Shown in pieces: positions 1,902 through 55,815 of a DNA stretch of 64,000 bases. The notes under the pieces are model-generated. The model searched no databases. It was not told the DNA's origin and was given only the letters and a program-made list of their open reading frames with translations. Origin of the DNA: Paenibacillus sp. FSL H7-0326 (GTDB lineage Bacteria > Bacillota > Bacilli > Paenibacillales > Paenibacillaceae); NCBI RefSeq assembly GCF_001955535.1, contig NZ_MPVN01000006.1:1-64000 (forward strand). The letters are read 5' to 3'. Position 1 is the first letter of the stretch, and each line of letters opens with the position of its first letter. Made by a program: the position numbers and the translations under genes.

Positions 1902-2798
1902 CTATATACGCGTAGATTGATAATGGCGTCGCAATCCTTCACCAAGCAGATTAAAGGTGACGATGGTGAACATCATGGCAAATGCTGGGTAAAAGACAAA
2001 ACCAAATTGGCTTCGAAAAATTTCGTGACGGTGACTTGCAAGAAGAGCTGCCCAATTTAAGCCGGTTTGGACAAATTCGTTAGTATAATAGTCGACCTCT
2101 CTCCATTCATGTGAAAGAAAGATACTGATAATAGATAACTGTCCTATAAGAAGCATGACTTTGCCTAAATCAATGCAGAAATTAACGATCAACTCTAGTA
2201 ACAGTGCAGGTATGTAATAGTTCTTCACTAGAGTTCTAGAGCTTAGTCCTAACGCAATCCCAGCTTCCATATAACTTTCCCTGGACAATTGATTAGCCTG
2301 TTGTTGAATTGTATAGGCAACACGGCCCGCTTCCACGACAGCAAGAATGAGAATGGACCATAACAGGCGGAGATCAGTAAAGAGAAGAAAAGGAATAGCT
2401 AGTAGTAAGGCTGTTGCAAAAACAGGTGGCAAGAAAGAAAAACATTGATTCAATGCGTTAATTACATGGTGAAAGAATCCTTTCTTTTTGCATGATAATA
2501 GTCCAAGTGGGATTGCGATTATATAGCGAATTAAAGTAATTATGATAACAATGAATATGGTTTCTTTGGCTGCAATCACAATCTTACTTAAATTATCGAC
2601 TCCTTTTTTGTCAGTTCCGATCCAATTCTTCTCGGATGCTTCGAACGCAGGAAGTTCAAGCTTATTAAATGCATCCATACGGTATCTCTCCTGGCTCAAA
2701 TTCTTATCTATAAATGGAAGGTGAGGGCCAATAAACATCACAAATAGAAGCAAGCCTAACAATATACTACCGATTAACAAGGGAATATTCTTTCGCAA
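1902..2798 (-). CDS. ABC transporter permease, DppC/OppC type
   Basis: Inner-membrane permease of the oligopeptide/nickel ABC uptake family, about 298 residues with five or six hydrophobic segments. The cytoplasmic coupling loop is recognisable around the YMEAGIALGLSSRTLVKNYYIPALL region, which corresponds to the EAA loop that contacts the ATPase. The reading frame opens with a GTG at 2807, but GAGGTG lies just before an in-frame TTG at 2798 with a six-base spacer, so TTG is preferred. It is the second gene of a pair with the OppB-type permease (56 bp apart). No binding protein or ATPase is nearby, so the substrate cannot be assigned; partners must be encoded elsewhere. Confidence 0.85.
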   Translation of the reverse strand: MRKNIPLLIGSILLGLLLFVMFIGPHLPFIDKNLSQERYRMDAFNKLELPAFEASEKNWIGTDKKGVDNLSKIVIAAKETIFIVIIITLIRYIIAIPLGLLSCKKKGFFHHVINALNQCFSFLPPVFATALLLAIPFLLFTDLRLLWSILILAVVEAGRVAYTIQQQANQLSRESYMEAGIALGLSSRTLVKNYYIPALLLELIVNFCIDLGKVMLLIGQLSIISIFLSHEWREVDYYTNEFVQTGLNWAALLASHRHEIFRSQFGFVFYPAFAMMFTIVTFNLLGEGLRRHYQSTRI

Positions 2799-2863
2799 TC
2801 TGCTCACCTCAAACTCTAACTATCTATGTAACTTAAATATTAAATCTCATATTTTCTTATGTA

Positions 2864-3775
2864 TTATTGACGATCGAAATATCGGCGAGCCGCAGCAGCG
2901 ATCCATTGAACCAATAAAAATAGCAGCATGAAGTAAAGCACAATATAGATAATGACGCCAGGTTCATAATTGTTTCCGGTTCCAACTTGAGTATCGTAAT
3001 CAAGAGCTTGGGATAAGCGGTACGCTGCCCCAGGGTAACTTCTATAGATTTCGACCATTAGCAGATTTGAAAGAATGAATACGAGCATCCCTGGAAGATG
3101 GGTTAAGATTGTAATAATACCATTAGCTAACATATGTTTACACAGTATGACCCACTCGCGAAGTCCCTTAGCCCTGGCTAATTTGATGTATAATTTATTT
3201 TCTTGTGAGGTTAAGGAAGCGGAGGTAAGTCGTGCAATCTGGACAATCGGATAGATGGATACTAGTAAGGAAGGGATGATAAAGCCCTGCCATCCATCGG
3301 TTGCAAAGAAACGAATAAAGGGAACATTTTTGATAATAAACCATTGGATAAGTAAAATAAGGAAAAAATCGGGGATGGCATTGATGATCCAGGTTGTCCA
3401 ATTGCCGAGCAAGTTCAATCTGGTTTTGGAGAGACGGTAATCCATAACTCCTTTTAAAATCCCAAAGATCAAGCCAATTAACAATGCTGTCACAATCACC
3501 AGCAGGCTTCTGCCCATTGCTTTTAATGCCTCTGATTCTGAAGAATGGCCAGAATATCTCGATTCCCCCAAGCTTCCGTTCTCGATCGCTGTTTTGAAAA
3601 ATTCACTAACATGGGCTGTATACTGACTTAGAGTAAGAGAGGGCTCCTCAGCTACGATCTTATAATCCTGAATACTTAGTTCAAGCTGACGAGGAATTAG
3701 AACAACAGAAACGATAAGACAGAAGGCAAGGATGCTTACAATCGAAGATTTTAGCATTTGATACTTAAGATTCAT
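2864..3775 (-). CDS. ABC transporter permease, DppB/OppB type
   Basis: Integral membrane permease (303 residues) of the dipeptide/oligopeptide ABC family. It has an N-terminal membrane anchor (about residues 10-30), a long extracellular stretch, then five hydrophobic segments. The EAA-like loop (IKLARAKGLREWVILCKHML) contains the conserved ARAKGL motif typical of OppB/DppB. The reading frame could start at a TTG at 3787, but GGAGGT sits immediately before ATG 3775, which is taken as the start. The extracellular loop is unusually divergent from classical OppB. It is first of a two-gene unit with the DppC-type gene. Confidence 0.87.
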   Translation of the reverse strand: MNLKYQMLKSSIVSILAFCLIVSVVLIPRQLELSIQDYKIVAEEPSLTLSQYTAHVSEFFKTAIENGSLGESRYSGHSSESEALKAMGRSLLVIVTALLIGLIFGILKGVMDYRLSKTRLNLLGNWTTWIINAIPDFFLILLIQWFIIKNVPFIRFFATDGWQGFIIPSLLVSIYPIVQIARLTSASLTSQENKLYIKLARAKGLREWVILCKHMLANGIITILTHLPGMLVFILSNLLMVEIYRSYPGAAYRLSQALDYDTQVGTGNNYEPGVIIYIVLYFMLLFLLVQWIAAAARRYFDRQ

Positions 3776-3857
3776 ATCTACCTCCAATAGATTTCAAAGT
3801 ATACATCTAGTAGTATCACAATTTACCTGTTTTTGTCTATATTAAGCATCTACTGTA

Positions 3858-3908
3858 AAGAATCTAGCACTAGTAGACGACTATCCGTCTCCTTAGCGCT
3901 AGATTGCT
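3858..3908 (-). terminator. probable terminator behind the AraC sensor gene
   Basis: AATCTAGC and GCTAGATT flank an inner GACG/CGTC stem. On the minus strand the hairpin starts at the stop codon of the AraC gene and runs into TTCTTTAC. The U tract is weak. Confidence 0.5.
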
Positions 3909-6193
3909 TTTCTGTCTTCACGATATTGTCCGGGTGTGACGCCCTCTAATTTTCGGAAAGAGCGAATGAAGTTTTGTGAATTGTTGTACCTTAGTTTGGT
4001 TGCGATGTCCTTGATGGACATATCGGACGTTGTCAGCCATTTTTTTGCCATACTAAAACGATAATTGGTCAAGTATTCGCTGAAAGAGCAGCCCGTTTCT
4101 TTACGAAAAACACTGCTGAGATAGTTGGCATTGTAGTGAAGTCGATGGGCGCATTCCTCTAACGTTAGATCTGTATCATAATAATTCTGTACAAGGTCAA
4201 TGATCTTCTCAGAAATATGATGATATTGAGTATTTTGGCGATTACGGAATACACCAACGATAGGAAGAATGAGCTTGAACCAGAACCAATTACGGATCTC
4301 ATCAACGGTGTCCAGCTTCAGAATATCTTCAAAGACAGAGCGCTTCTCATGATAGATATGATGTACGCTAATTCCAGACTCTTGCATCATCAGCAGAAGA
4401 TTATTAAGCAGCCGAGTAATTGGTATTTGATATTCATGGGGAAGGAGCTCAAGGTCGAAGATACAGTTAAGCAGTTGATCAAAAGTGTCCCGAGCCTTTC
4501 GTTCATCGGCCAGCTTGATCGCCTCTATCAGCTCATTCTCCAGCTGTGCAGGATAAGACAGGTTCACGTAGTGCTTACCATCATTAAGATCCTGATATTG
4601 GATAACGATGCCTTTACCGAGCTTAATTCGGTGTCTGAGTGCTTCCAGCCCCTCCCGATATGCCATGGAAATACCATGAAAAGATTCCACAGGTAAGCTG
4701 ATCCCGATGCTCACTGATAGATCAAGAACCTGATCAATATGGTTTTGAACATCCTCTGTTAAGGAGTAGAGATAAGCATTAAATACGGTATCATCCGTTT
4801 CTTCACCGCCAACCAGCAGAACGATCGTATGGTCTATTATGACTGGAGTGAGACGTTCTTTCTGTGAGACAAGCTCTTCCAGCATATTTTGCACGGCAAA
4901 CAATAGCAGCTCAAGGTCTTTTTTCTCATATCGGGTTTGCTCTGTAAAATCAATCTGAATGGTCAGGACAGCCATCGTGCGCCATTCGTTCATTTGTTTG
5001 CCATAACCATACTGCTCGAGTTTGTGAAGGAGCTCATTTGATTTGAACTGGCCTGTGAATACTTTGGTTAGATAGAAGGTTCTAACCTGCTGGATGTGCT
5101 GATGCAGCTCCTTTTCAAGCCTTGACTTCGACTGGAATAAGTCCGACACTTCAGCCCCGATATGCTCAAATTCGTTACGATCTGGTCTAAGCCCTAGCTC
5201 ATTCAGTAATCTACGGATAGGTGAATAAATGCGTCTTGATCCAAGAAAGGCCATTCCAACGGAAATAAGCAGCAGAGCCAGACACATCAGTAGAGTGTAG
5301 GTTCCAATTTGTGAAGATTTTTGAGTAAGACTCTGGATGGAGGTTGCCGATAAATAGGTCCAGTCATTAAGCTCGGAACGATAATAAGATACCGCATAAT
5401 CTTGACCTGACAATTCGGTTGTAAACTGTCCTGACGGCTGCTCGAGCTTGCCTTCGGCATGGAGTCCGCTCTCAGATAAGGGCTTCCCGATCAGTTCCTG
5501 ATCATAATGGAACAGGATACGTTCATTGGCATCTAAGATGATAATGTCTTCCGTTGAATCACCGTCCTTTTGAATAAAGTCCTTTAGCTCACAGGAGGGG
5601 ATATTGGCGATCGCAAGACCGGATTTCTCAATTCCGGTGGCGGGCAGCTTTTTAACTAGGCTGATATTGTACTGGCAGTTGGCACCGTTCGCATTCTCCT
5701 CACTATAAAACCACTTCGACGGAGTAAGAGTCCAGCCTGAATTCTCCTTCATATTTTGGAGACCTTGAATCTCGTCGGCCAGGGGGTAATCATTGAAACG
5801 GTAGAGACCTGAGTTTTTGATCATCCAGTTTTGGTCGAAATTGATAAGTACAACATCATCGAGCTTGGTTTCAAAAGACTGCATGTTTCGGACTTCGGTG
5901 CGGAGATCATTATAGGTTTTGAAATCGGTTACAAAAAGTGGGCTTTGAAGAGCGTTTTTAAGCACACTGGAGCTGACTACCTGATTAAGAGTGTGGTTGA
6001 CAGTCACAAGCTTTTGTTCTAAATTGGAATTAATTTGCAAAATAAGCTGCATCTTACTGCTGTTGACGTTCCGCTGTATCTCCTGAGTAGAGGTAACATA
6101 AGCAAATACACCGATGAAAATGACAGGAATCGTGCTCAGCAGGAGGACGAAGATCGTTATTTTGCTTAAAAAGCTCAAAGCGTTCCAGCGCAT
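3899..6193 (-). CDS. membrane-bound AraC-family transcriptional regulator (YesN/YesS-like sensor)
   Basis: One-component sensor-regulator of 764 residues. A transmembrane helix near residues 12-32 is followed by a large extracytoplasmic sensor region (about 35-285, probably Cache-like). A second helix lies near 290-310, followed by a cytoplasmic linker with a degenerate GGDEF-like portion (about 385-505). The C-terminal AraC double helix-turn-helix (about 660-760) contains LTLEECAHRLHYNANYLSSV and SIKDIATKLRYNNSQNFIRS. Such proteins usually activate an adjacent sugar ABC uptake locus. This one is divergent from a binding-lipoprotein gene 85 bp away, which supports that role. GTG at 6202 is possible, but AGGTG is best spaced for ATG 6193. 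Confidence 0.9.
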   Translation of the reverse strand: MRWNALSFLSKITIFVLLLSTIPVIFIGVFAYVTSTQEIQRNVNSSKMQLILQINSNLEQKLVTVNHTLNQVVSSSVLKNALQSPLFVTDFKTYNDLRTEVRNMQSFETKLDDVVLINFDQNWMIKNSGLYRFNDYPLADEIQGLQNMKENSGWTLTPSKWFYSEENANGANCQYNISLVKKLPATGIEKSGLAIANIPSCELKDFIQKDGDSTEDIIILDANERILFHYDQELIGKPLSESGLHAEGKLEQPSGQFTTELSGQDYAVSYYRSELNDWTYLSATSIQSLTQKSSQIGTYTLLMCLALLLISVGMAFLGSRRIYSPIRRLLNELGLRPDRNEFEHIGAEVSDLFQSKSRLEKELHQHIQQVRTFYLTKVFTGQFKSNELLHKLEQYGYGKQMNEWRTMAVLTIQIDFTEQTRYEKKDLELLLFAVQNMLEELVSQKERLTPVIIDHTIVLLVGGEETDDTVFNAYLYSLTEDVQNHIDQVLDLSVSIGISLPVESFHGISMAYREGLEALRHRIKLGKGIVIQYQDLNDGKHYVNLSYPAQLENELIEAIKLADERKARDTFDQLLNCIFDLELLPHEYQIPITRLLNNLLLMMQESGISVHHIYHEKRSVFEDILKLDTVDEIRNWFWFKLILPIVGVFRNRQNTQYHHISEKIIDLVQNYYDTDLTLEECAHRLHYNANYLSSVFRKETGCSFSEYLTNYRFSMAKKWLTTSDMSIKDIATKLRYNNSQNFIRSFRKLEGVTPGQYREDRKAI

Positions 6194-17347: not shown

Positions 17348-18910
17348 ATGGCGAACATTCAAAAGGTTGAAACAATGCAGGCATCGAGTGCGGTATTTTT
17401 CATTTTTGGAGCTACGGGCGATCTCGCCCGGCGCAAGCTTTTTCCTGCGATTTATAGTCTTTACCGGGAAGGTAAGCTGTCAGATCACTTTGCAGTTATT
17501 GGTCTGGCAAGACGTCAGCGGACGCGTGAGGAGTTCAGAGAAGATGTGCTGTCCTCAATAAAGGAGTTTTGTCGTTATAAGCCAAGCGATGGGAACCAAG
17601 AGGAATGGGCTGAGTTTGCACGGCATTTCGAATATAAGTCTTTAGATATTCATCATGTCGATGGGTTTCGTGAGCTTAATGCCTTCACAGAGGATGTGGA
17701 ACATGAATTTTCCATTCCCGGTAATCGTCTGTTCTACCTCGCGCTGGCTCCTGAGCTGTTTGGAAGCGTGTCTTCCCATTTGAAAGAAGGGGGGCTGCTT
17801 GAAAGTACAGGCTGGCACAGGCTGGTCATTGAGAAGCCCTTCGGCTATGACTTGGGCTCGGCAGAGCAGCTGAATGAGCAAATTCGTGAAGTATTTCGCG
17901 AAGAAGAAATTTACCGGATCGATCATTATTTGGGCAAAGAAATGGTACAGAATATAGAGGTGATCCGTTTCGGCAATGCCTTTTTTGAGCCGTTATGGAA
18001 TAACAAGCATATTTCCAATATTCAGATTACACTGGGTGAGACCGTCGGAGTTGAAGAGCGTGGAGGATACTATGACCAGGCCGGCGCCCTTCGTGATATG
18101 GGACAGAACCATATGTTGCAGATGCTCACAATGATTGCCATGGAGCCGCCAAGCCGGCTTGTGCCCGAGGATATCCGGGATGAGAAGGTGAAGGTGCTTC
18201 GTTCCTTACGTCCGTTTGCTTCAAGTGAGGATGTGAGCGCGAATGTCGTTCGTGGTCAATATACGGAAGGTGATGTGAAGGGGGTACATCTGCCCGGTTA
18301 TCGCCAGGAGGATAAAGTAGATCCCAGTTCCAATACAGAAACGTATTTTGCGGCGAGGGTATTCGTCGATAACTTCCGATGGGCTGGAGTGCCCTTCTAT
18401 ATCCGAACCGGTAAGCGACTGCCTGTCAAAACGACAGAAGTGGTTGTGGAGTTCAAATCCATGCCGAACAATGTGTATCTTGGTCAAAAATATAAGCTCG
18501 AGCCGAACCTCCTTGTCATCCGTGTAAATCCGATGGAGGGTATTTATATCAAGATCAATGCCAAGAAGCCAGGCACAGATTCAGAGATTGAGCCGCTTGC
18601 CATGGATTTTTGCCAGAGCTGCATGATTGGAATTAACTCCCCGGAGGCTTATGAACGGCTCATTCATGATGCTGCAGAAGGAGACTCCACCTATTTTACA
18701 AGATGGGACGAAGTTGCAACGGCCTGGTCCTTCGTAGACCGTATTGCAGCGGTATGGCAAGAGCAGCCGGAGAGTCTGGCCTATTATCCTGCAGGCAGCT
18801 GGGGGCCGTCCGCAGCGGATAATCTGCTGGAGCAGGATGGACATCACTGGTGGCCGGTTAATGGACAGGATGAAGACAACGTGATCTGGATTAAGAACAA
18901 TGAAGGATGA
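17348..18910 (+). CDS. zwf: glucose-6-phosphate dehydrogenase, paralogue 1
   Basis: Cytosolic enzyme of the oxidative pentose-phosphate pathway, oxidising glucose 6-phosphate to 6-phosphogluconolactone with reduction of NADP (or NAD). It has 520 residues, slightly long for the family because of an N-terminal extension and an insertion near 80-90. Motifs visible: nucleotide-binding GATGDLA (21-27), EKPFG (162-166), the active-site signature RIDHYLGKE (190-198), and the catalytic-base region RDMGQNHMLQM. AAGGAG precedes ATG 17348. It is monocistronic with its own terminator. A second, distinct G6PD gene lies at 26460. Confidence 0.95.
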   Translation: MANIQKVETMQASSAVFFIFGATGDLARRKLFPAIYSLYREGKLSDHFAVIGLARRQRTREEFREDVLSSIKEFCRYKPSDGNQEEWAEFARHFEYKSLDIHHVDGFRELNAFTEDVEHEFSIPGNRLFYLALAPELFGSVSSHLKEGGLLESTGWHRLVIEKPFGYDLGSAEQLNEQIREVFREEEIYRIDHYLGKEMVQNIEVIRFGNAFFEPLWNNKHISNIQITLGETVGVEERGGYYDQAGALRDMGQNHMLQMLTMIAMEPPSRLVPEDIRDEKVKVLRSLRPFASSEDVSANVVRGQYTEGDVKGVHLPGYRQEDKVDPSSNTETYFAARVFVDNFRWAGVPFYIRTGKRLPVKTTEVVVEFKSMPNNVYLGQKYKLEPNLLVIRVNPMEGIYIKINAKKPGTDSEIEPLAMDFCQSCMIGINSPEAYERLIHDAAEGDSTYFTRWDEVATAWSFVDRIAAVWQEQPESLAYYPAGSWGPSAADNLLEQDGHHWWPVNGQDEDNVIWIKNNEG

Positions 18911-26459: not shown

Positions 26460-27914
26460 ATGGATTCAATGACTTTTGTCCTGTTCGGGGCTACTGGCGA
26501 CTTAGCCAAGAGAAAAATTTACCCAGCACTATACAACCTGTATGTTGATCAAAAAATGCCATCATCATTTTCTGTTATTGGTCTAGGAAGAAGAGAAGTG
26601 TCCGATGTGGATTTTCAGGCGAGAGTTGAAGCCTCACTTCATACATTCTCTCGCCGTTCTCCAGAGGATGCCGCTAAGGTACGTGATTTCCTAGGCGCTT
26701 TTCGTTATACATCGCTTAACAATACCAAGCTTGAAGATTACAAGAAGCTGCTTGAAGTGGTTGAAAAACGTGAGCAGGAGCTTGGCATTCCACAAAATCG
26801 GATGTTCTATTTGTCGGTTGCTCCAGAATTTTTTGAGCCCATTGCCGAAAATATCAAAGAGAGCGGGCTCGGTTCAGGCCGCGGCTGGAAACGGCTTATC
26901 ATTGAGAAGCCATTCGGTCATGACTTGGCATCTGCAATACAGCTGAATGAGAAGCTGAACAGTACTTTTGCAGAGGAAGAGATTTACCGTATTGACCATT
27001 TCCTCGGTAAACCCATGGTTCAGAATCTTGAGGTACTAAGTGCAACGAATTCTGTCATGCATGCATTGTGGGGAAATCATTATATTTCAAATGTGCAAAT
27101 TACCGCAAGTGAAACCGTAGGGGTCGAAGAGCGGGCAGAATACTATGACCATACTGGAGCCGTAAGAGATATGTTCCAAAATCATATGCTGCAGCTGCTC
27201 ATGATGATCTCACTTCACCTGCCGAAGAAATCTTCTCCAGATGAGGTTCGTGCGAAGAAGAGAAATACGGCACAGTCTTTGATTCCGCTGGATGAAGAAG
27301 CACTTGATCGGCATATTGTAAGAGCGCAATACCAAGCAGGTGATTTACAAGGTAAACCCGTAGTTGGTTACCTGGAAGAGCCCGGTATTGAAGCAACTTC
27401 CAAGAACGACACGTATTTCGCAGCACGCTTGTTCCTGGATGATCCATTCTGGACAGGAGTTCCTTTCTATATCCGTACAGGTAAACGTCTGAGTGAAAAA
27501 TCGACACGAATCGTAGTTGAGTTCAAGCAGCCGCTAAGTGCGGGAACGTCTAATGGTGAATCGGTATCTGCTAACTTGCTTACCATCGATATTGGACCGA
27601 AGGAAGGCATGCGCCTGACGCTGAATTCTAAGAGCCCAATGCATCATGATACGATTGAGCCGATGGAGCTTAGCTTCAATTCCTCGTATGACAACGTACC
27701 TGAAGCTTATGAGAACCTCATTTTTGATGCGCTTCGTGGTGATGCCACATTCTTCGCGCATTGGGATGAAGTAGAGCTGTCATGGAGATGGGTCGAGCCG
27801 ATTCTTAAAGCCTTTGCTGCAAATGAAGTTCCACTTCACTATTATGCGGCGGGAACAGAAGGTCCAGCGGCAGCGGAAGAACTGCTTGCACAGGACGGAA
27901 ATCGCTGGCATTAA
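26460..27914 (+). CDS. zwf: glucose-6-phosphate dehydrogenase, paralogue 2
   Basis: Second G6PD of the window, 484 residues, the usual length. Motifs: GATGDLA (10-16), EKPFG (149-153), active-site RIDHFLGKP (177-185), RDMFQNHMLQL. It shares the core with paralogue 1 but differs in the signature (HFLGKP versus HYLGKE) and lacks that protein's N-terminal extension. It lies 89 bp upstream of the 6-phosphogluconate dehydrogenase gene with no terminator between, so it is probably the pentose-phosphate operon copy. GGGAGG precedes ATG 26460. Confidence 0.95.
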   Translation: MDSMTFVLFGATGDLAKRKIYPALYNLYVDQKMPSSFSVIGLGRREVSDVDFQARVEASLHTFSRRSPEDAAKVRDFLGAFRYTSLNNTKLEDYKKLLEVVEKREQELGIPQNRMFYLSVAPEFFEPIAENIKESGLGSGRGWKRLIIEKPFGHDLASAIQLNEKLNSTFAEEEIYRIDHFLGKPMVQNLEVLSATNSVMHALWGNHYISNVQITASETVGVEERAEYYDHTGAVRDMFQNHMLQLLMMISLHLPKKSSPDEVRAKKRNTAQSLIPLDEEALDRHIVRAQYQAGDLQGKPVVGYLEEPGIEATSKNDTYFAARLFLDDPFWTGVPFYIRTGKRLSEKSTRIVVEFKQPLSAGTSNGESVSANLLTIDIGPKEGMRLTLNSKSPMHHDTIEPMELSFNSSYDNVPEAYENLIFDALRGDATFFAHWDEVELSWRWVEPILKAFAANEVPLHYYAAGTEGPAAAEELLAQDGNRWH

Positions 27915-47411: not shown

Positions 47412-47441
47412 ATGACAGGGATATCGGTAATCATGTATAAT
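47412..47441 (+). promoter_or_regulatory. sigma-A-like promoter of the envelope cluster
   Basis: ATGACA (47412-47417), 18-bp spacer, TATAAT (47436-47441). It is 113 bp before the first gene of the 47.5-55.6 kb cluster; the leader contains a tiny open frame MKTQS with a GGAG site. Confidence 0.6.
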
Positions 47442-47554
47442 ATTCGGGAGATTGAACCAAGAGCAAGGCAGGAGTAACCTCGATGAAGACACAATCTTAA
47501 ATTGACCGATAAAGTGGTACAGAACTAGAGTGTGAAAAAAAGGTGGTCAAGTGG

Positions 47555-47989
47555 ATGGATATTGAAATATGGAAAGAGTTTATTTCGCAAAATTGGCTTG
47601 TTATCGTGATTGCGCTGATTCTGTTGTTCGTCGTTATTAATGTGCTGAGGACTATGCTCAAATGGGCCATTGTCGTCGTGATTGTTGCGGCACTTATCAT
47701 CTATAGCGGTGTTTCATTTGAACAGATTAGAACAGTCGTCACTGATGTTGGTGCCAGCACGATGGATACGCTTCGAACAGAGGCCGCGGAGCTCATGCAG
47801 AAGGAAGCGGAAAAAGCGGAGTATACAGTGAATCCGGACGGTACCTTCACCATAACAAGTCCGAATGTTGAAGTGAGCGGCAAGCAGGGCGAGGATAAGG
47901 TTAAAGTGTCTGTCCGCGGCATATCGCTCGGGGAGTGGAGTGTTAACGATACGGTTCAATTGTTTATGGAAACCGCTCAGAATCAATAG
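47555..47989 (+). CDS. hypothetical membrane protein of the PBP cluster
   Basis: 144 residues, family not recognised. A long hydrophobic stretch (about 14-55, two helices) is followed by a short amphipathic helix (VVTDVGASTMDTLRTEAAEL) and a beta-rich external or cytoplasmic tail (90-144; VNPDGTFTITSPNVEVSG). AGGTGG precedes ATG 47555, with GTG 47543 as alternative. Followed 49 bp later by the CvpA-transglutaminase gene, so it is probably part of the same transcript and envelope function. Confidence 0.72.
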   Translation: MDIEIWKEFISQNWLVIVIALILLFVVINVLRTMLKWAIVVVIVAALIIYSGVSFEQIRTVVTDVGASTMDTLRTEAAELMQKEAEKAEYTVNPDGTFTITSPNVEVSGKQGEDKVKVSVRGISLGEWSVNDTVQLFMETAQNQ

Positions 47990-48038
47990 CTGCGTTTTTA
48001 GTTTTAGAGCTTTAGATAGGCAAGAAAGCAGGTGAATT

Positions 48039-49178
48039 ATGATTGATGCTTGGATAGGGAGCGTGAAGGAGGGGAACCTCATTACGCTTGTTCTAATGAT
48101 GATTATCCTTATATCGCTGTTGCAGGGCTTTATCCGGGGAGCTTCTCGTTCGGCAGGCACACTGGTGAACCTGATTACAGAGGGTGTGTTCACCATCGTC
48201 GGAATCGCAGGTGCTTTCCTGCTATCCTTGAAGCTGTCTCCTGCGGTACAGTCATGGCTATCGGGCTACAGTGAGGCGATGCCGGATCGCGATTTAAACA
48301 CATGGGAGCAAATATATTACACCGTCATTACGGCACTGGCTGATTTTCCGCTGCTGCGGTTTGCTGTGCTGTTCGTTATCAGTTACAGCATCATTCGTTC
48401 CATTCTAAGTCTGATCGGCGGGTTCATCAGAGGAATTCCATCCGGTGAAGCTCGCCGCAATCCAGGCTTTCTCAGCCGATTAATGGGGGCGGGCTTCGGT
48501 GCTGTCGTTGGAGCAGCAAGATGCGTATTGGTTATTGCACTGCTGTTCATTGTAGTCAGTCTGTATCCTAGCAGTTCTTTCAGCAATTATGTAGAGTCAT
48601 CACCGATGTATCAGCAAGGAGCGAAATCCGTAATAGAGCCCATATCCGGGACTCTGATTAAGGACAAGCTTCCGGTTATCAGCCAGGCTGCTCAGAAGGA
48701 ATTTAACGGCATGATGCAGCGCAGATATGAGGTCATTGACCGCAATATTCCTGAGGATATCGAAGGAGCTGCGGCTAAGATTGTGGAGGGTGCTGCTACA
48801 GATGAGCAGAAGGCAAGAGAGCTCTATCAATGGGTAGGAACCCGAGTTGAGTACGATTATGGAAAAGTCGAGGATTACGAGCAGCGCGGCATATGGAATG
48901 AGCAGACGCCTCAAGATACCTTCGATACGATGATGGGGGTATGTATTGACTACGCGAGGCTCTATGCGGTAATGGCTCGTTCACAGGATCTCGAGGTGAG
49001 AGTCGTTACAGGCCTTGGTTACAACGGTCAAGGCGGCTATGGGGCTCATGCCTGGAATGAAGTATACCTGAGTGAACAGGATACTTGGGTCCCTCTTGAT
49101 CCGACATGGGCAAGCAGCGGTGACTGGTTCAATCCGCCTCATTTTTATGACACCCATATCAAAGATCAGACTGTCTAA
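48039..49178 (+). CDS. CvpA-like membrane domain fused to a transglutaminase-like domain
   Basis: 379 residues. The N-terminal half (1-175) has four helices with CvpA-family motifs: a glycine-rich LLQGFIRGASRSAGTLVNLI near the first helix and FLSRLMGAGFGAVVGAARCV before the last. The C-terminal half (about 235-375) is a transglutaminase-like fold with a full catalytic triad: Cys302 (GVCIDYARL), His338 (AHAWNEVY) and Asp354 (LDPTW). The triad may cleave or cross-link peptides outside the membrane. It precedes three class B PBPs, implying cell-wall work. The ribosome site AAAGCAGGTG is moderate. Confidence 0.85.
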   Translation: MIDAWIGSVKEGNLITLVLMMIILISLLQGFIRGASRSAGTLVNLITEGVFTIVGIAGAFLLSLKLSPAVQSWLSGYSEAMPDRDLNTWEQIYYTVITALADFPLLRFAVLFVISYSIIRSILSLIGGFIRGIPSGEARRNPGFLSRLMGAGFGAVVGAARCVLVIALLFIVVSLYPSSSFSNYVESSPMYQQGAKSVIEPISGTLIKDKLPVISQAAQKEFNGMMQRRYEVIDRNIPEDIEGAAAKIVEGAATDEQKARELYQWVGTRVEYDYGKVEDYEQRGIWNEQTPQDTFDTMMGVCIDYARLYAVMARSQDLEVRVVTGLGYNGQGGYGAHAWNEVYLSEQDTWVPLDPTWASSGDWFNPPHFYDTHIKDQTV

Positions 49179-49226
49179 ATAGGCTGCCGGGTATATTTCG
49201 GAATAGCAGGAAAGGGTAGTAGCATA

Positions 49227-51281
49227 ATGAACAAAGAGGAGATGGCTTCGTATCTTGGTCAGCAAACAAACCATGAGAAAAGTTTCAGCTTTCGCTTAAA
49301 TGTGTTTTTTCTTGCGACATTTCTTATTTTTACCGTATTGATTGTAAGATTGGCCTATTTGCAGCTGGTGCAGGGACCGACAATGCAGAAGGAAGAAGCC
49401 AATATTGCAACAAAAAGCGTGTCGATTGCGCCCATTCGCGGAACGATCTTCGATTCGACAGGCGAGAACAAAATTGCTTATTCTTCATCCACTCAATCCT
49501 TGTACATGAGCTTGGACAAGAATTATAGTCTTGAAGAGAACAAGGCTGAGCTAAGCAGTATCATTTCCGAGCTTAAAGCGGTATTTGATGAATATGGCGA
49601 TCCAGAAACGACTATGACTGCACAGGGAATTGAAGAAGCGCTTGATATTACGTATCGACAAAATTACGGATATACGCCTAGGCGAATCAAAACCGATTTG
49701 ACAAACGAGGAGATTGCCTATTTCTTGTCTCATAAAGAGGATTTCCCGGGTGTTGAAGTGGTAGAAGAGAATATTCGCCATTATGACAAGGACACGGTTG
49801 CAGTACAGACCGTTGGGTACATGAAGCCCTTCCGTTCGGTGATTGATCCAGAGTATGGCATTGATTTCTATATTCAAGCCAAGGAAGAGGAGGACCCGGC
49901 GCTCCAATATCTTGATAATGAAGAGGTCGGATATGATGGAGTGGAGCTGATGTTCCAGGAGGAGCTTCGCGGCACGAAAGGACTGAAGACCTTCCCGGTG
50001 GACTCGCAGAATCGGATCTCGGGTGAATCGACATTGACCCCGCCTGACAAGGGTAATAATGTGTGGCTGTCGATTAACAAAGATGTGCAGATGGCAACCG
50101 AACAGGCCATAATGGATCAGCTGGAATATTTGCAGACAACTAGCAATCCTGCCGTCTATGCACCCAACGCCAAAACCGGCTTTGCCGTTGCCATGGAAGT
50201 AGATACGGGGCAGATTGTTGCGATGGCAAGCATGCCTGACTACGACTCTAATGTGTGGTCAGAGGGCAGTAAAACCCAGGAAGAAATTAATAAGATATCA
50301 CCGTTCTCCTCCAATGGAGCCATTCGTGAAGTGTATCAATCGTATGGAAGCCAGGAGGAGAGCTATAAGCATCCTTCTTCTACCGTGCTGCTCGGTTCTG
50401 TTATTAAGCCGCTGTCGGTATTGATTGGATTGAATGAAGGACTGTTTACCACCTCGACGATCTATAACGATACGGGAGCAGGCAAGTTCGGGAAGAAGGG
50501 ATATGAATCAACGGTACGTAATTCGAGTGGTCACGTATATGGTCAAATCGACCCCGCCTCTGCCATCGAACATTCGTCCAATGCCTTTATGATTGAGATG
50601 GTAGCCAATAAGCTGTTTGATAAATACAACACCGGTGGTGTGGAAGTATGGGACAGCTATATGAAGCAGTTTGGGCTTGGTGTCAGTACGGAAAGCGGTC
50701 TGCCTGGTGAGCAGGATGGGTTGCGCGAGTATATCCATGAGCAGGAAACCACCGGTACACAATCAGCTTTGGCTTACGCTTCATTTGGTCAGCAGGGTAA
50801 GTATACAACACTGCAGCTGGCTCAATATACGGTTATGCTGGCGAATGAAGGGAAACGATTAAAGCCCCAAATTGCCAGCAAGATAACTGATGAGGATGGG
50901 AATGTCGTCAAGGAGTTCGGAGCAGAAATCTTGAACACCGTCGAGATGGATGATGCTTACTGGGACGAAATCAAACAAGGGATGAACAGTAATGTTCAAG
51001 GCTTTGATAACTTCCCTTATGATTATGCTCGTAAGACAGGAACCTCCCAACAGAATGTAGGTGGAGTAGATGTTGAAAACGGCGTGTTCATTACCTTCGC
51101 TCCTCGTGACAATCCGAAGCTGGCGATTGCTGTCGTTATACCGGAAGGGAAATTTGGCTCCAACAGTGCTGCGCCGGTAGCAAGGAAGATTTATGATGCC
51201 TATGACAAATACATTGGACTGGACGGTACGCCTAAGGGAAATGAGGCAGCCGAACAGGATGAAGAGCAGAGCACTAATTAA
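49227..51281 (+). CDS. class B penicillin-binding protein, tandem copy 1
   Basis: Peptidoglycan DD-transpeptidase of 684 residues, PBP2/PbpA/PbpH type. One membrane helix (about 24-46) is followed by the dimerisation domain with RGTIFD (71-76), then the transpeptidase. Motifs: S391-V-I-K394 (SVIK), S450-S451-N452, K603-T604-G605 (KTGTS). Its catalytic tetrad is SVIK, not the STVK of the two neighbours. No PASTA domains. GAAAGGG precedes ATG 49227. A terminator separates it from copy 2. Confidence 0.93.
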   Translation: MNKEEMASYLGQQTNHEKSFSFRLNVFFLATFLIFTVLIVRLAYLQLVQGPTMQKEEANIATKSVSIAPIRGTIFDSTGENKIAYSSSTQSLYMSLDKNYSLEENKAELSSIISELKAVFDEYGDPETTMTAQGIEEALDITYRQNYGYTPRRIKTDLTNEEIAYFLSHKEDFPGVEVVEENIRHYDKDTVAVQTVGYMKPFRSVIDPEYGIDFYIQAKEEEDPALQYLDNEEVGYDGVELMFQEELRGTKGLKTFPVDSQNRISGESTLTPPDKGNNVWLSINKDVQMATEQAIMDQLEYLQTTSNPAVYAPNAKTGFAVAMEVDTGQIVAMASMPDYDSNVWSEGSKTQEEINKISPFSSNGAIREVYQSYGSQEESYKHPSSTVLLGSVIKPLSVLIGLNEGLFTTSTIYNDTGAGKFGKKGYESTVRNSSGHVYGQIDPASAIEHSSNAFMIEMVANKLFDKYNTGGVEVWDSYMKQFGLGVSTESGLPGEQDGLREYIHEQETTGTQSALAYASFGQQGKYTTLQLAQYTVMLANEGKRLKPQIASKITDEDGNVVKEFGAEILNTVEMDDAYWDEIKQGMNSNVQGFDNFPYDYARKTGTSQQNVGGVDVENGVFITFAPRDNPKLAIAVVIPEGKFGSNSAAPVARKIYDAYDKYIGLDGTPKGNEAAEQDEEQSTN

Positions 51282-51294
51282 TATTTAATGGGAT

Positions 51295-51341
51295 GAAACA
51301 GTATGTCTTGAAAGGTTCATATAAGGCATACTGTTTCTTTG
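51295..51341 (+). terminator. intrinsic terminator after PBP copy 1
   Basis: GAAACAGTATG pairs with CATACTGTTTC; short TTTG tail. Confidence 0.78.
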
Positions 51342-51438
51342 TCGTTTAATGACGAAACTGTAACCAGCAAAGAGGAAATTTATTGTCCGATTATGGTAGA
51401 ATGGAATACAGCAAAAGAAACACAAAGCGAGGTATCGT

Positions 51439-53475
51439 ATGGCACAGCAGCAAAATCATGAAAAGGAAGAACTTTCGAACAAACGCCGGTTCAGTTTTCG
51501 ATTGAACTTTTTCTTTTTTAGCTCTTTTATTATCTTTTCTATTATTATTATAAGATTGGCTGTACTGCAGTTTGTGGAGGGGCCCGTGCTTGCTCAGCAG
51601 GAGAGCAGCAGTGTAACGAAGAGTATTCCATTACTTCCTGTCCGCGGAACGATCTATGATGCGACCGGAGAAACCAAGCTTGCCTATTCGGAGCCGATTC
51701 AATCCTTGTACATCACCTTGTACAAGAATTACAGCCAGCAGGAAGGCGGCCCAGAGAATCCGAATCGTCCAGAGGCCGAGGCTATGGCGGAGAAGCTGGC
51801 GGAAGTGTTTGCTGAGTATGGGGAAGCAGACCGTGAGCCAATGTCTAAAGATGATATCATTAACGCCATGGATCTGGAGAATACTCAAGCTTATGGTTAC
51901 ACACCTAGACTCATCAAGAGTGATCTATCGGAGAAAGAGATTGCTTACTTCATGCAGCACAAGAAGGATTTTCCAGGTGTGAGTGTAATAGAGGAAACGG
52001 TCCGCAAATATGATGAGGATTCCGTCGCTGTACAAGCGATCGGCTATCTCAAGACGTTCAAAACGTCCAAGACATTAGCGGAATATGATGCTATTGATAA
52101 GGAGAATAGCAGCCAAACGGATCCAGGGCTTGTCTATTCTGAGCTTGAGTATGTGGGTGTAGATGGTTTGGAACGACAGTATCAGGATGAGCTGCGCGGT
52201 AAGGCCGGATACAGCCAGATTCCAATTAATCCGCTTAACCTGCCGGAGGAGGGAACGGTGATTCAGCCTCCACAGAAGGGCCATAATCTGATCTCGTCCA
52301 TCCATAAGGACATTCAGGTTGCGACTGAAGAGGCAATTATGGATCAACTGGACTGGCTGCACAGTAACCCGGTCTCTGGTAAGCTCCATCCCAACGCCAA
52401 GACAGGCTTTGCTGTCGCCATGGAAGTCGAGACAGGGAATATAGTCGCGATGGCCAGTATGCCGGACTATGATCCGAATAAGCCTTGGGATTATGACAAG
52501 GTCAAATACATTTACCGGAATGGTACGGTAGAGTCCTTCCCGCCGGATGATACGGGAAGACATCCCGAGTCGACGGTATTGTTGGGTTCAACGGTGAAGC
52601 CGCTAAGTGTGTTAATTGGATTGAAGGAAGGCTTCTTCTCCCCTAATGGAACCGTTTATCAGGATAGAGGGATCGCCTATTTTGGACGGGATGATTCAAG
52701 TGTAAGGAACTCCCAGAATCATGTATACGGACCGCTGTCGGCTGCCACTGCGATTGAGCATTCCTCCAATGCTTTTATGGTTGACTTAATCGGAGAAAAG
52801 TTATGGAACAAATATGGCAGTGAAGGGGTTAACGTCTGGGATGAGTATATGAAGGAGTTTGGTCTTGGCGTAGAAACAGGTGTGGATTTACCTAAAGAAT
52901 ACGAAGGCTTCCTTGAGTACACGAATGAGGCAGAAACATCATTAGCAAGACTTGCGTATGCTTCATTTGGTCAGCAAGGTAAATATACAACCATGCAGCT
53001 TGCTCAGTATGCAACGATGCTGGCTAACAAAGGAAAGCGAATGGAACCCCATTTGGTGAAGGAAATTCGTGATTCGGAAGGTAATGTCGTCGAGAAGATT
53101 GAGCCAAAAGTTCTTAACGAAGTTGAGTTCAGTGATACTCTTTGGGAAACCATTCACCGTGGAATGAATACGGATGTGTCGAGGGCATTCTCTGGATTCC
53201 CATACGACTTTGCTCGTAAGACGGGAACGTCCGAGCAGGATCTTTATTATAATGGAACGCGTAATCGGGTAGATAACGGTGTGTTTATCGCATTTGCCCC
53301 GCGTGAGAATCCGAAGCTGGCCGTTGCGGTCGTCGTACCGGAAGGTGGATTCGGCTCAAGCAGTGCTGCTCCAATTGCTCGTAAAATCTTTGATGCCTAT
53401 GATCAGGCCTATGGACTCGATGGTGTTCCGAAAGGAAAACCAAAGAATACGGAAGGCGATACAACAGAACAATAA
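51439..53475 (+). CDS. class B penicillin-binding protein, tandem copy 2
   Basis: 678 residues, same architecture as copies 1 and 3: an N-terminal helix (about 24-46), RGTIYDATGE in the dimerisation domain, then the transpeptidase with S384-T-V-K387 (STVK), SSN in EHSSNAFMVDL, and KTGTSEQ. The C-terminal third is nearly the same as copy 3 (for example the KRMEPHLVKEIRDSEGNVV block), indicating a more recent duplication of these two. The ribosome site GCGAGGT precedes ATG 51439. Confidence 0.93.
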   Translation: MAQQQNHEKEELSNKRRFSFRLNFFFFSSFIIFSIIIIRLAVLQFVEGPVLAQQESSSVTKSIPLLPVRGTIYDATGETKLAYSEPIQSLYITLYKNYSQQEGGPENPNRPEAEAMAEKLAEVFAEYGEADREPMSKDDIINAMDLENTQAYGYTPRLIKSDLSEKEIAYFMQHKKDFPGVSVIEETVRKYDEDSVAVQAIGYLKTFKTSKTLAEYDAIDKENSSQTDPGLVYSELEYVGVDGLERQYQDELRGKAGYSQIPINPLNLPEEGTVIQPPQKGHNLISSIHKDIQVATEEAIMDQLDWLHSNPVSGKLHPNAKTGFAVAMEVETGNIVAMASMPDYDPNKPWDYDKVKYIYRNGTVESFPPDDTGRHPESTVLLGSTVKPLSVLIGLKEGFFSPNGTVYQDRGIAYFGRDDSSVRNSQNHVYGPLSAATAIEHSSNAFMVDLIGEKLWNKYGSEGVNVWDEYMKEFGLGVETGVDLPKEYEGFLEYTNEAETSLARLAYASFGQQGKYTTMQLAQYATMLANKGKRMEPHLVKEIRDSEGNVVEKIEPKVLNEVEFSDTLWETIHRGMNTDVSRAFSGFPYDFARKTGTSEQDLYYNGTRNRVDNGVFIAFAPRENPKLAVAVVVPEGGFGSSSAAPIARKIFDAYDQAYGLDGVPKGKPKNTEGDTTEQ

Positions 53476-53485
53476 GACTGACAGG

Positions 53486-53522
53486 CTGCCGAGAGTAAGA
53501 AAAATCTCGGCAGCTTTTTTTG
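53486..53522 (+). terminator. intrinsic terminator after PBP copy 2
   Basis: GCTGCCGAGA/TCTCGGCAGC perfect 10-bp stem with T run. Confidence 0.93.
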
Positions 53523-53549
53523 CTTGTATATGGAATAAATTAGTATAAT
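53520..53549 (+). promoter_or_regulatory. promoter of PBP copy 3
   Basis: TTGCTT (53520-53525), 18-bp spacer, TATAAT (53544-53549), 78 bp before the start. The -35 overlaps the T tract of the preceding terminator, so copy 3 has its own transcription start. Confidence 0.6.
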
Positions 53550-53627
53550 TAGAGTTATGAATCCAATATAACGAAGGGATTCAACATTCAACATAAGTTG
53601 GTCTGACAATGGGGGAGGACTCATCTA

Positions 53628-55643
53628 ATGAACCGTTACGAGCAGGAACAGGAAAGGCTGCTTAAGGCGAATAAAAGAAGCTTTCGTCTTAATCTCACCT
53701 TTTTTGCTGCCTTTCTGCTGTTTTGTGTACTGATCGTACGCCTGGCCTTTCTACAGTTTGTCGAAGGTGCTGAACTGACGGCGCTTGAGCATGGGGAGAA
53801 CCGGAAGGCGGTGCCGATGATGCCTGTACGAGGGACGATTTTTGATGCAACCCATACGCCGCTTGCTTATTCGGAGCCTTCGCACTCGTTATATCTCACC
53901 CTCTATAAAAATTACGGGAACGCAGACGGCATCCCCTCAGCAAGCCGGATCGAAATGAACCTGCTGGCGCAGGAAATTGCAGCGGTGTTTAAACAGCATG
54001 GTCATGCGGATGCGGAGGAGATCACTGCCGGGGATATTGTCAATAAGCTGGATTTGAACTACTCCAAAGCCGGAGGATATGTACCTCGTTTGATCAAAAG
54101 TAATCTATCTTCGGAAGAAGTGGCTTATTTTCTCCAGCATAAAGAACGGTTTAAGGGTATCGATATCGTTGAAGAAACGGTGCGGAGATATCATAAGGAT
54201 TCCCTGGCGGTACAGACGGTGGGTTACTTGTATAAATTCAAGGGAGCTAAGGTAGAGCCGCTGTACGAGCAGATGGATCACCGAAATGCTGAGATGGCTG
54301 TTCAGCAGCCAGGACTGTTTTATCAGGAGAATGAACATGTCGGGTTTGGTGGTTTGGAGCTTCAGTATCAGGAAGAGCTTCGAGGTGAATCCGGATATTG
54401 GCTCATTCCGGTGGATCCTCGTAACATGCCGATCGGACCGGCAGAGCTCGTACCGCCGAAGAAGGGCCATCATTTGTACACCACACTGCATAAGGATGTG
54501 CAAAAGGCAACGGAGCAGGCGATTCTGGATCAGATTAAGGCCCTTCGTTCAAGCGGCAAGAGCGAGTCGAAGAATGCATCAACCGGCTATGCGGTAGCGA
54601 TGGAGGTGGATACAGGACATGTAATCGCCATGGCCAGTATGCCGGATTACGATACTAATGTATGGGAACAGGGCGGTGTATCTCCGGAAATCTATGACCA
54701 GATTCGCCATATTTATCAGAATGGTACAATCCGATCCTTCTTCCCTTCGGATAAAACAAACACGCCGGAGTCGGTCGTTCTTCTCGGTTCTACTGTAAAG
54801 CCGCTCAGCGTTCTAATCGGCCTGAAAGAAGGGCTGATCAGCCCTTCTACAACGTATAATGACCTCGGTTCAGCCGAATTTGGCCGGGACGGATCAAGAG
54901 TCTCGAACTCAGGCGGTGCTGTCATGGGAAGACTGACGGTACAAGATGCAATACGCCGTTCCTCGAACGCCTTCATGGTTGATTTGATCGGTGAAGGGCT
55001 GTACCGCAGATATGGCAGTAAGGGAGTCGACATTTGGGATGAATACATGAAGGAATTTGGACTTGGAGTAGCAACAGGCGTGGACTTGCCCAATGAATTT
55101 CGCGGCCGGATTGAGTATAGACAGGAGGGACAGACAGCACTATCATCACTGGCGTTTGCTTCCTTCGGTCAGCAGGGCAAATATACGACAATGCAGCTTG
55201 CACAATATGCGTCAATGCTGGCTAATAAGGGGAAACGGATGGAGCCTCATCTTGTGAAGGAAATAAGGGATTCGGAAGGCAATGTTGTGAAGAAAATCGA
55301 GCCCAAGGTGCTGAATGAAGCTAAATTTGATGACAGCTACTGGAGCATTATTCATCGCGGAATGGATACGAATGTGGGTGCTGCCTTTAATGGCTTTCCA
55401 TACGATTATGCGAGGAAAACGGGGACTTCACAGCAGATGATCTATCCTGGCAACGGCCAAGAACCCATCAACGTGGATAATGGGGTGTTTATCGCTTTTG
55501 CTCCTCGCGAGAATCCCAAGCTCGCGGTTGCAGTGGTCATTCCCCAAGGCGGATTTGGAGCAAGCAGTGCTGCCCCTGTCGCCCGCAAAATATTTGATGC
55601 GTATGACAAATACTACGGACTGGACGGTACGCCAGCATCATAG
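53628..55643 (+). CDS. class B penicillin-binding protein, tandem copy 3
   Basis: 671 residues, the third paralogue. Membrane helix at about 22-44, RGTIFDATHTPL in the dimerisation domain, S388-T-V-K391 (STVK), RRSSNAF (SSN) and KTGTSQQ. It carries two arginines instead of EH before the SSN triad. The shared KEIRDSEGNVV segment makes it closest to copy 2. GGGAGG precedes ATG 53628. It ends with the same GLDGTP tail as copy 1. Confidence 0.93.
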   Translation: MNRYEQEQERLLKANKRSFRLNLTFFAAFLLFCVLIVRLAFLQFVEGAELTALEHGENRKAVPMMPVRGTIFDATHTPLAYSEPSHSLYLTLYKNYGNADGIPSASRIEMNLLAQEIAAVFKQHGHADAEEITAGDIVNKLDLNYSKAGGYVPRLIKSNLSSEEVAYFLQHKERFKGIDIVEETVRRYHKDSLAVQTVGYLYKFKGAKVEPLYEQMDHRNAEMAVQQPGLFYQENEHVGFGGLELQYQEELRGESGYWLIPVDPRNMPIGPAELVPPKKGHHLYTTLHKDVQKATEQAILDQIKALRSSGKSESKNASTGYAVAMEVDTGHVIAMASMPDYDTNVWEQGGVSPEIYDQIRHIYQNGTIRSFFPSDKTNTPESVVLLGSTVKPLSVLIGLKEGLISPSTTYNDLGSAEFGRDGSRVSNSGGAVMGRLTVQDAIRRSSNAFMVDLIGEGLYRRYGSKGVDIWDEYMKEFGLGVATGVDLPNEFRGRIEYRQEGQTALSSLAFASFGQQGKYTTMQLAQYASMLANKGKRMEPHLVKEIRDSEGNVVKKIEPKVLNEAKFDDSYWSIIHRGMDTNVGAAFNGFPYDYARKTGTSQQMIYPGNGQEPINVDNGVFIAFAPRENPKLAVAVVIPQGGFGASSAAPVARKIFDAYDKYYGLDGTPAS

Positions 55644-55748: not shown

Positions 55749-55779
55749 AAGCAGGAGAAAATTTCTCTTGCTTTTTTTT
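55749..55779 (+). terminator. intrinsic terminator after PBP copy 3
   Basis: AAGCAGGAGAAA pairs with TTTCTCTTGCTT, then eight Ts. A weaker stem AAACATGAG/CTCATGTTT lies just before it (55672-55701). Confidence 0.88.
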
Positions 55780-55815
55780 GTGGAGTCTAATAATATTTGC
55801 ACTAAGGAAACATTA

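Follow-up and report, generated by a model that had tools for sequence, protein, structure and literature searches.

Elongation-like class B penicillin-binding proteins beside a CvpA-transglutaminase fusion in Paenibacillales

A conserved locus of the order Paenibacillales places class B penicillin-binding proteins (PBPs) that look like the transpeptidases of cell elongation beside two membrane proteins. The locus was read in 64,000 nucleotides of DNA from Paenibacillus sp. FSL H7-0326 (assembly GCF_001955535.1, contig NZ_MPVN01000006.1, positions 1–64,000, forward strand), a stretch referred to here as the window. Open reading frames (ORFs), Pfam matches and alignments bear out the cluster as it was first described: there are five ORFs between 47543 and 55643, all on the + strand. 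In gene order they encode a small membrane protein (SMP), then a CvpA-transglutaminase fusion, and finally three class B PBPs, all of full length and in tandem. That this locus supplies the cell's elongation class B transpeptidases, together with two membrane proteins, is judged about evenly balanced. The PBPs are of a known kind; the fusion architecture and its conserved neighbourhood are a variant for which no account was found. In most of the order's regions surveyed, two widely conserved membrane proteins stand beside elongation transpeptidases, and a role was found for neither. If the SMP or the fusion couples to the Rod complex, it would be a new component of a machine known largely from work on Bacillus and Escherichia coli. 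Such coupling would also provide a function for the CvpA-transglutaminase architecture, which is present in other Bacilli as well.

Class and role of the penicillin-binding proteins

Each of the three window PBPs carries the Pfam domains PBP_dimer (PF03717) and Transpeptidase (PF00905) and no others. Their catalytic motifs are intact: SxxK is SVIK, STVK and STVK in the three copies, followed by SSNA and KTGT. Among 125 aligned subfamily PBPs, checked by alignment columns, all 125 retain SxxK and SxN, and 123 retain KTG. The cluster PBPs look like elongation (Rod-complex) class B transpeptidases by elimination, with two class B names assigned by context. The whole genome has ten PF00905 matches, all accounted for. 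Three are class A enzymes with PF00912. SpoVD scores over its own cut-off, and the PBP adjoining it in a mur-type cluster is presumably PbpB, a name we take from its position in the gene order. Another, with mltG- and ruvX-like ORFs some 5 kb away, we take to be PbpI-like from ORF reading and context. That leaves four matches: the three PBPs of the cluster and a further, remote paralogue that shares 82% identity with copy b. Genes mreB, mreC, mreD, minC, minD and rodA lie together elsewhere on the same contig (mreB, mreC and rodA by Pfam, the rest by ORF reading), and there is no PBP within that group.

A search with copy b across 21 genomes of the order, including unlinked and fusion-less ones, returned one to three strong relatives in every genome (21/21). 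These are separated by a clean gap (E of 3e-155 or better) from the next matches (9.5e-32 or weaker). Since each genome has at least one strong relative and then only distant PBPs, the cluster proteins look like the order's universal elongation-type transpeptidases. The nearest solved relatives of copy b are structures of PBP 2B, SpoVD and MrdA. In side-wall synthesis the PBPs would very probably work with a SEDS protein, RodA being the likeliest, and their tandem copies would be redundant or condition-specific. A precedent comes from Bacillus subtilis, in which double depletion of Pbp2a and PbpH converts rods into spheres and PbpH is termed redundant (PMC5854468). PBP2A (encoded by pbpA) and PbpH resemble the cluster PBPs in being class B enzymes of elongation present in multiple copies, a likeness of role. 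The arrangement differs, with three tandem copies and one remote copy here, and an operon-like locus shared with the SMP and the CvpA-transglutaminase fusion. The remote copy (L113, 7891–11462) lies near ORFs read as reverse-transcriptase- or maturase-like, so it may have moved with a mobile element.

Copy number was surveyed in 82 regions of the order, each pre-selected as fusion-bearing, hand-picked to span genera and therefore non-random, and fetched with flanks of 9 kb. There is one PBP ORF in 41 regions, two in 29, three in four and none in eight. Fragments of genes split in L099, L111 and L125 were counted individually, and the counts for L099 and L111 are inflated in this way; the true triples are L052, L054 and L055, in addition to the window. 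Three PBPs in a row, called unusual in the preliminary description, are indeed rare (3/82 regions and the window), and they represent a local, clade-specific expansion of a locus that usually has one or two. A PBP tree was built after two fragments from L099 and two from L111 had been excluded. Copies from the same locus or sister pair cluster at support of at least 0.99 in eight places (L065, L074, L076, L079, L083, L084/L086, L085 and L087/L088), which points to repeated tandem duplication or concerted evolution. Repeated tandem duplication of an elongation PBP amounts to a natural experiment on why redundant copies of a drug target are kept. Window copies a, b and c are old paralogues, with 57–62% nucleotide identity and no identical run of 40 bases or more. 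Recent gene conversion between b and c, whose C-terminal halves look alike, is rejected given the absence of such a run and an overall identity of 62%.

The fusion protein and the small membrane protein

Both parts of the fusion score above the Pfam cut-offs: CvpA (PF02674) scores 45.3 bits against 29.3, and Transglut_core (PF01841) 80.4 bits against 23. The Cys-His-Asp triad, reported earlier as intact in the window, is also invariant (C302/H337/D354) in all homologues aligned: 83/83 within the order, counting the window protein, and 20/20 beyond it. The AlphaFold model, whose predicted local distance difference test (pLDDT) score is 86.8, combines a helical membrane half with a transglutaminase-fold domain that begins near residue 238. 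Judged by eye, the charged loops at residues 29–40 and 127–150 would lie inside and the catalytic domain outside. With this positive-inside topology, the CvpA part very probably anchors the transglutaminase-fold domain at the outer face of the membrane. A comparable layout is found in MarP of Mycobacterium, in which a CvpA-like multi-pass anchor carries an outward chymotrypsin-like serine protease involved in wall biology. The analogy concerns how the proteins may work, as the C-terminal domain of the fusion is a Transglut_core with a Cys-His-Asp triad and is not chymotrypsin-like.

Among solved structures, the catalytic domain is best matched by the transglutaminase-like TglA of Streptococcus pyogenes (PDB 9crn; Z 15.4, 132 residues aligned, 2.5 Å; profile E 1.1e-5). 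The TglA alignment covers the catalytic domain only, at 20% identity, and no paper on TglA was found in the open-access literature. On the peptidase side, further fold matches are LapG (Z 12.2), the putative cysteine protease 3isr (12.0), PeiW (10.4) and PeiP (10.3). PeiW and PeiP cleave the Ala-Lys isopeptide bond of pseudomurein, and Pseudomonas TgpA is a membrane-attached Transglut_core protein (PMC10318531). The two Pei enzymes (C71) share the transglutaminase fold with the fusion; they differ in being lytic, in acting on archaeal pseudomurein, and in sequence (about 15% identity). TgpA (PDB 6g49) is a weak profile match (E 3e-4), limited to the catalytic stretch 299–363. No description of a CvpA-transglutaminase protein or of its PBP linkage was found in the open-access literature, where 'CvpA' was not searched alone.

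The fusion is most likely a membrane-tethered cysteine peptidase that serves wall elongation or is simply co-expressed with it. More specifically, and tentatively, its transglutaminase-fold domain may be a cysteine peptidase or isopeptidase, not a protein cross-linker, acting on a substrate in the zone of wall growth. Candidate substrates would be a peptide cross-link, a PBP or another wall protein. A stronger proposal, which we consider unlikely, is that the fusion exemplifies a new class of peptidoglycan (iso)peptidase, or editor of cross-links, tethered to the membrane as part of the order's elongation machinery. As such an editor, it would open or trim cross-links ahead of a RodA-PBP synthase, with the SMP as a regulator or coupler. 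In Bacillus, the secreted DL-endopeptidases CwlO and LytE perform comparable cross-link opening.

At E 1e-10 the fusion has matches in 277/295 family genomes and in 184/198 from the order, and at E 1e-12 in 120/398 from the class; some of these matches are to the transglutaminase domain only. Among the matches listed, G297 and G305 are domain-only, and G262 and G276 are judged so from E values near 1e-11. Outside the order, among the matches listed, 31 genomes have matches over most of the fusion model, and in 28 the match spans almost its full length. The nearest named relatives by fusion protein are Paenibacillus sp. TCA20 (97%) and 453mf (95%). In one Bacilli family outside the order, a full-length fusion gene abuts a ComEC-type competence gene downstream of it (L151, 10547–12076; L155, 10443–12143).

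The earlier description of the SMP as a small membrane protein stands. Its called start, GTG 47543 (148 aa), gives way to ATG 47555 (144 aa), which is more probable because most near relatives begin there in an alignment of 37 homologues. A hydrophobic N-terminal helix or hairpin is followed by a small outer domain (model pLDDT 84). A Foldseek comparison of the model with the PDB gave no match at E 0.001 or better, a result that is not evidence of a new fold, and in Pfam the only match is DUF3093, below threshold. That the SMP works at the membrane as a constant partner of either the fusion or the PBP is given about even odds. Outside the order, SMP-like proteins occur in 36/398 genomes; none of the 16 such regions read is near a subfamily PBP or a fusion. 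One outside-order locus (L162, 5052–10497) has an SMP-like gene and a fusion with two genes between them, and no subfamily PBP in the region.

Linkage across the order and its explanation

The association of the fusion with class B PBPs recurs order-wide. Counting as linked a PBP on the same strand, 3' of the fusion and inside the fetched stretch, 74/82 regions qualify, with a fusion-PBP gap of at most 569 nt in 64 and of 793–2559 nt in ten. The SMP gene lies immediately 5' of the fusion in 80/82 regions, adjoining it in all 80 where it was found; the median SMP-fusion gap in the survey is 42 nt. A promoter-like site with at least 10/12 consensus positions is present within 260 nt 5' of the SMP gene at 53/80 loci. 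The corresponding count is 2/80 in a control formed by the first 260 nt of the SMP gene, which is coding and hence of different composition. These short gaps and the conserved sigma-A-type site make co-transcription likely, and the SMP, fusion and PBPs are probably co-transcribed from a housekeeping sigma-A promoter. In the window, the sole + strand terminator-like match between the promoter site and the hairpin at the end of the cluster falls inside PBP copy c. A wall system specific to sporulation or germination is very improbable. Most carriers are probably spore formers, but the promoter-like site ahead of the locus is sigma-A-type, and SpoVD and the PbpI-like PBP are encoded elsewhere.

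Several findings weigh against reading the locus as an elongation unit with two membrane partners. Seemingly unconnected upstream genes are kept about as often as the PBP, with MFS in 79/82 regions, Toprim in 76/82 and CtaB in 69/82 (SCO1 in 59/82). As this flank is conserved like the PBP linkage, synteny alone could explain the linkage, and the PBP link does not stand out. Of the 31 outside-order genomes whose matches span most of the fusion model, 20 were read, and 0/20 fusion regions contain a subfamily PBP; a single weak PBP match of 50 bits occurs in L157. All five fusion-less genomes examined, from 31 without a match, keep the SMP beside a PBP, in one of them with a HAD hydrolase in between, and the fusion is thus dispensable. 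NCBIfam MrdA scores are 323–344 for the cluster PBPs, 371 for SpoVD and 284 for the PbpI-like protein, with a cut-off of 455. The score was dropped as proof of elongation class, since SpoVD outscores the cluster PBPs and all are below the cut-off; it does not discriminate, which leaves elimination as the basis of the elongation label. The genome also has six SEDS-family matches, so that each PBP copy has several candidate SEDS partners. Finally, transglutaminases fit the fold of the fusion about as well as the peptidases do (transglutaminase 4xz7, Z 12.5; TG2, 11.6; TG3, 11.0; factor XIII, 10.7). The fold is common to hydrolases and transglutaminases and does not by itself choose between a hydrolase and a cross-linker.

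The neighbourhood might therefore reflect inherited gene order only, an explanation that we regard as rather doubtful. An ancestral block (trpS, ctaB, SCO1, Toprim, MFS and, further on, HAD and MATE) would have persisted while its members served separate processes, perhaps on a shared transcript. The even retention of the upstream flank is as expected from such a block. The fusion-PBP link is missing in 8/82 regions, with a PBP elsewhere in all eight genomes; HAD and MATE genes still follow the PBP in three of these (L138, L139, L145). In nine regions a HAD-like gene, recognized by motif reading and confirmed by Pfam in one homologue, intervenes between fusion and PBP, and in the regions read outside the order neither fusion nor SMP is near subfamily PBPs. 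Gene order alone accounts less readily for the short same-strand gaps behind a conserved promoter-like site, for the constant adjacency of SMP and fusion, and for the retention of the SMP beside the PBP after fusion loss. The downstream genes are also less well kept (HAD 49/82, MATE 42/82, ZnuA 33/82), in part an effect of the range of the flanks.

The preliminary description had suggested a dedicated system of wall modification, with the transglutaminase cross-linking or editing the very peptide stems on which the three PBPs act. The intact triad, the predicted outside location, the linkage in most regions and a fold common to pseudomurein endo-isopeptidases and transglutaminases are all compatible with it. 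The proposal is nevertheless improbable and is not supported by the survey. The PBPs look like ordinary housekeeping enzymes of elongation that persist without the fusion (5/5), and their triplication is an expansion. The fusion in turn persists without a linked PBP, in the eight regions of the order and in 20/20 regions outside it, and linkage of the two is thus not obligatory.

Coordinates and other features of the window

Positions of the locus and its signals are collected in table 1. Over the whole region, neither promoter-like nor terminator-like totals clearly exceed those in shuffled sequence: the former is below the shuffle mean, and the latter is 8, compared with 6.9. The cluster is followed by a gene for a ZnuA-type binding protein (Pfam) and then by one for an ABC transporter (ORF reading).

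Table 1. Features of the SMP, fusion and PBP locus in the window.
Feature	Position	Strand	Basis and remarks
Sigma-A-type promoter-like site, ATGACA-18-TATAAT	47412..47441	+	11/12 consensus; ahead of SMP gene
SMP, small membrane protein, 148 aa as called	47543..47989	+	ORF; homologue alignment
CvpA-transglutaminase fusion, 379 aa	48039..49178	+	Pfam; CvpA part 16–192, transglutaminase core 244–355
Cys302 catalytic codon	48942..48944	+	Codon read; conserved in all homologues aligned
His337 catalytic codon	49047..49049	+	Codon read; conserved in all homologues aligned
Asp354 catalytic codon	49098..49100	+	Codon read; conserved in all homologues aligned
Class B PBP copy a, 684 aa	49227..51281	+	Pfam, motifs, tree; elongation type by elimination
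Class B PBP copy b, 678 aa	51439..53475	+	Pfam, motifs, tree; elongation type by elimination
Class B PBP copy c, 671 aa	53628..55643	+	Pfam, motifs, tree; elongation type by elimination
Terminator-like 11-pair hairpin and T-run, 3' of last PBP	55749..55782	+	Consensus match

Elsewhere in the window, 17 transfer RNA genes are arrayed within 1.5 kb (311–1823). Two permease-like ORFs on the - strand (1902–3787) fall mostly in the 2-kb block of lowest guanine-cytosine content (0.388, 2001–4000). Two ORFs resemble glucose-6-phosphate dehydrogenase, as read from their translations only (17348–18910 and 26460–27914). Between 12157 and 16603, a PspC-like ORF is flanked by two PspA-like ORFs and followed by LiaF-, sensor kinase- and response regulator-like ORFs, a set whose translations suggest an envelope-stress module.

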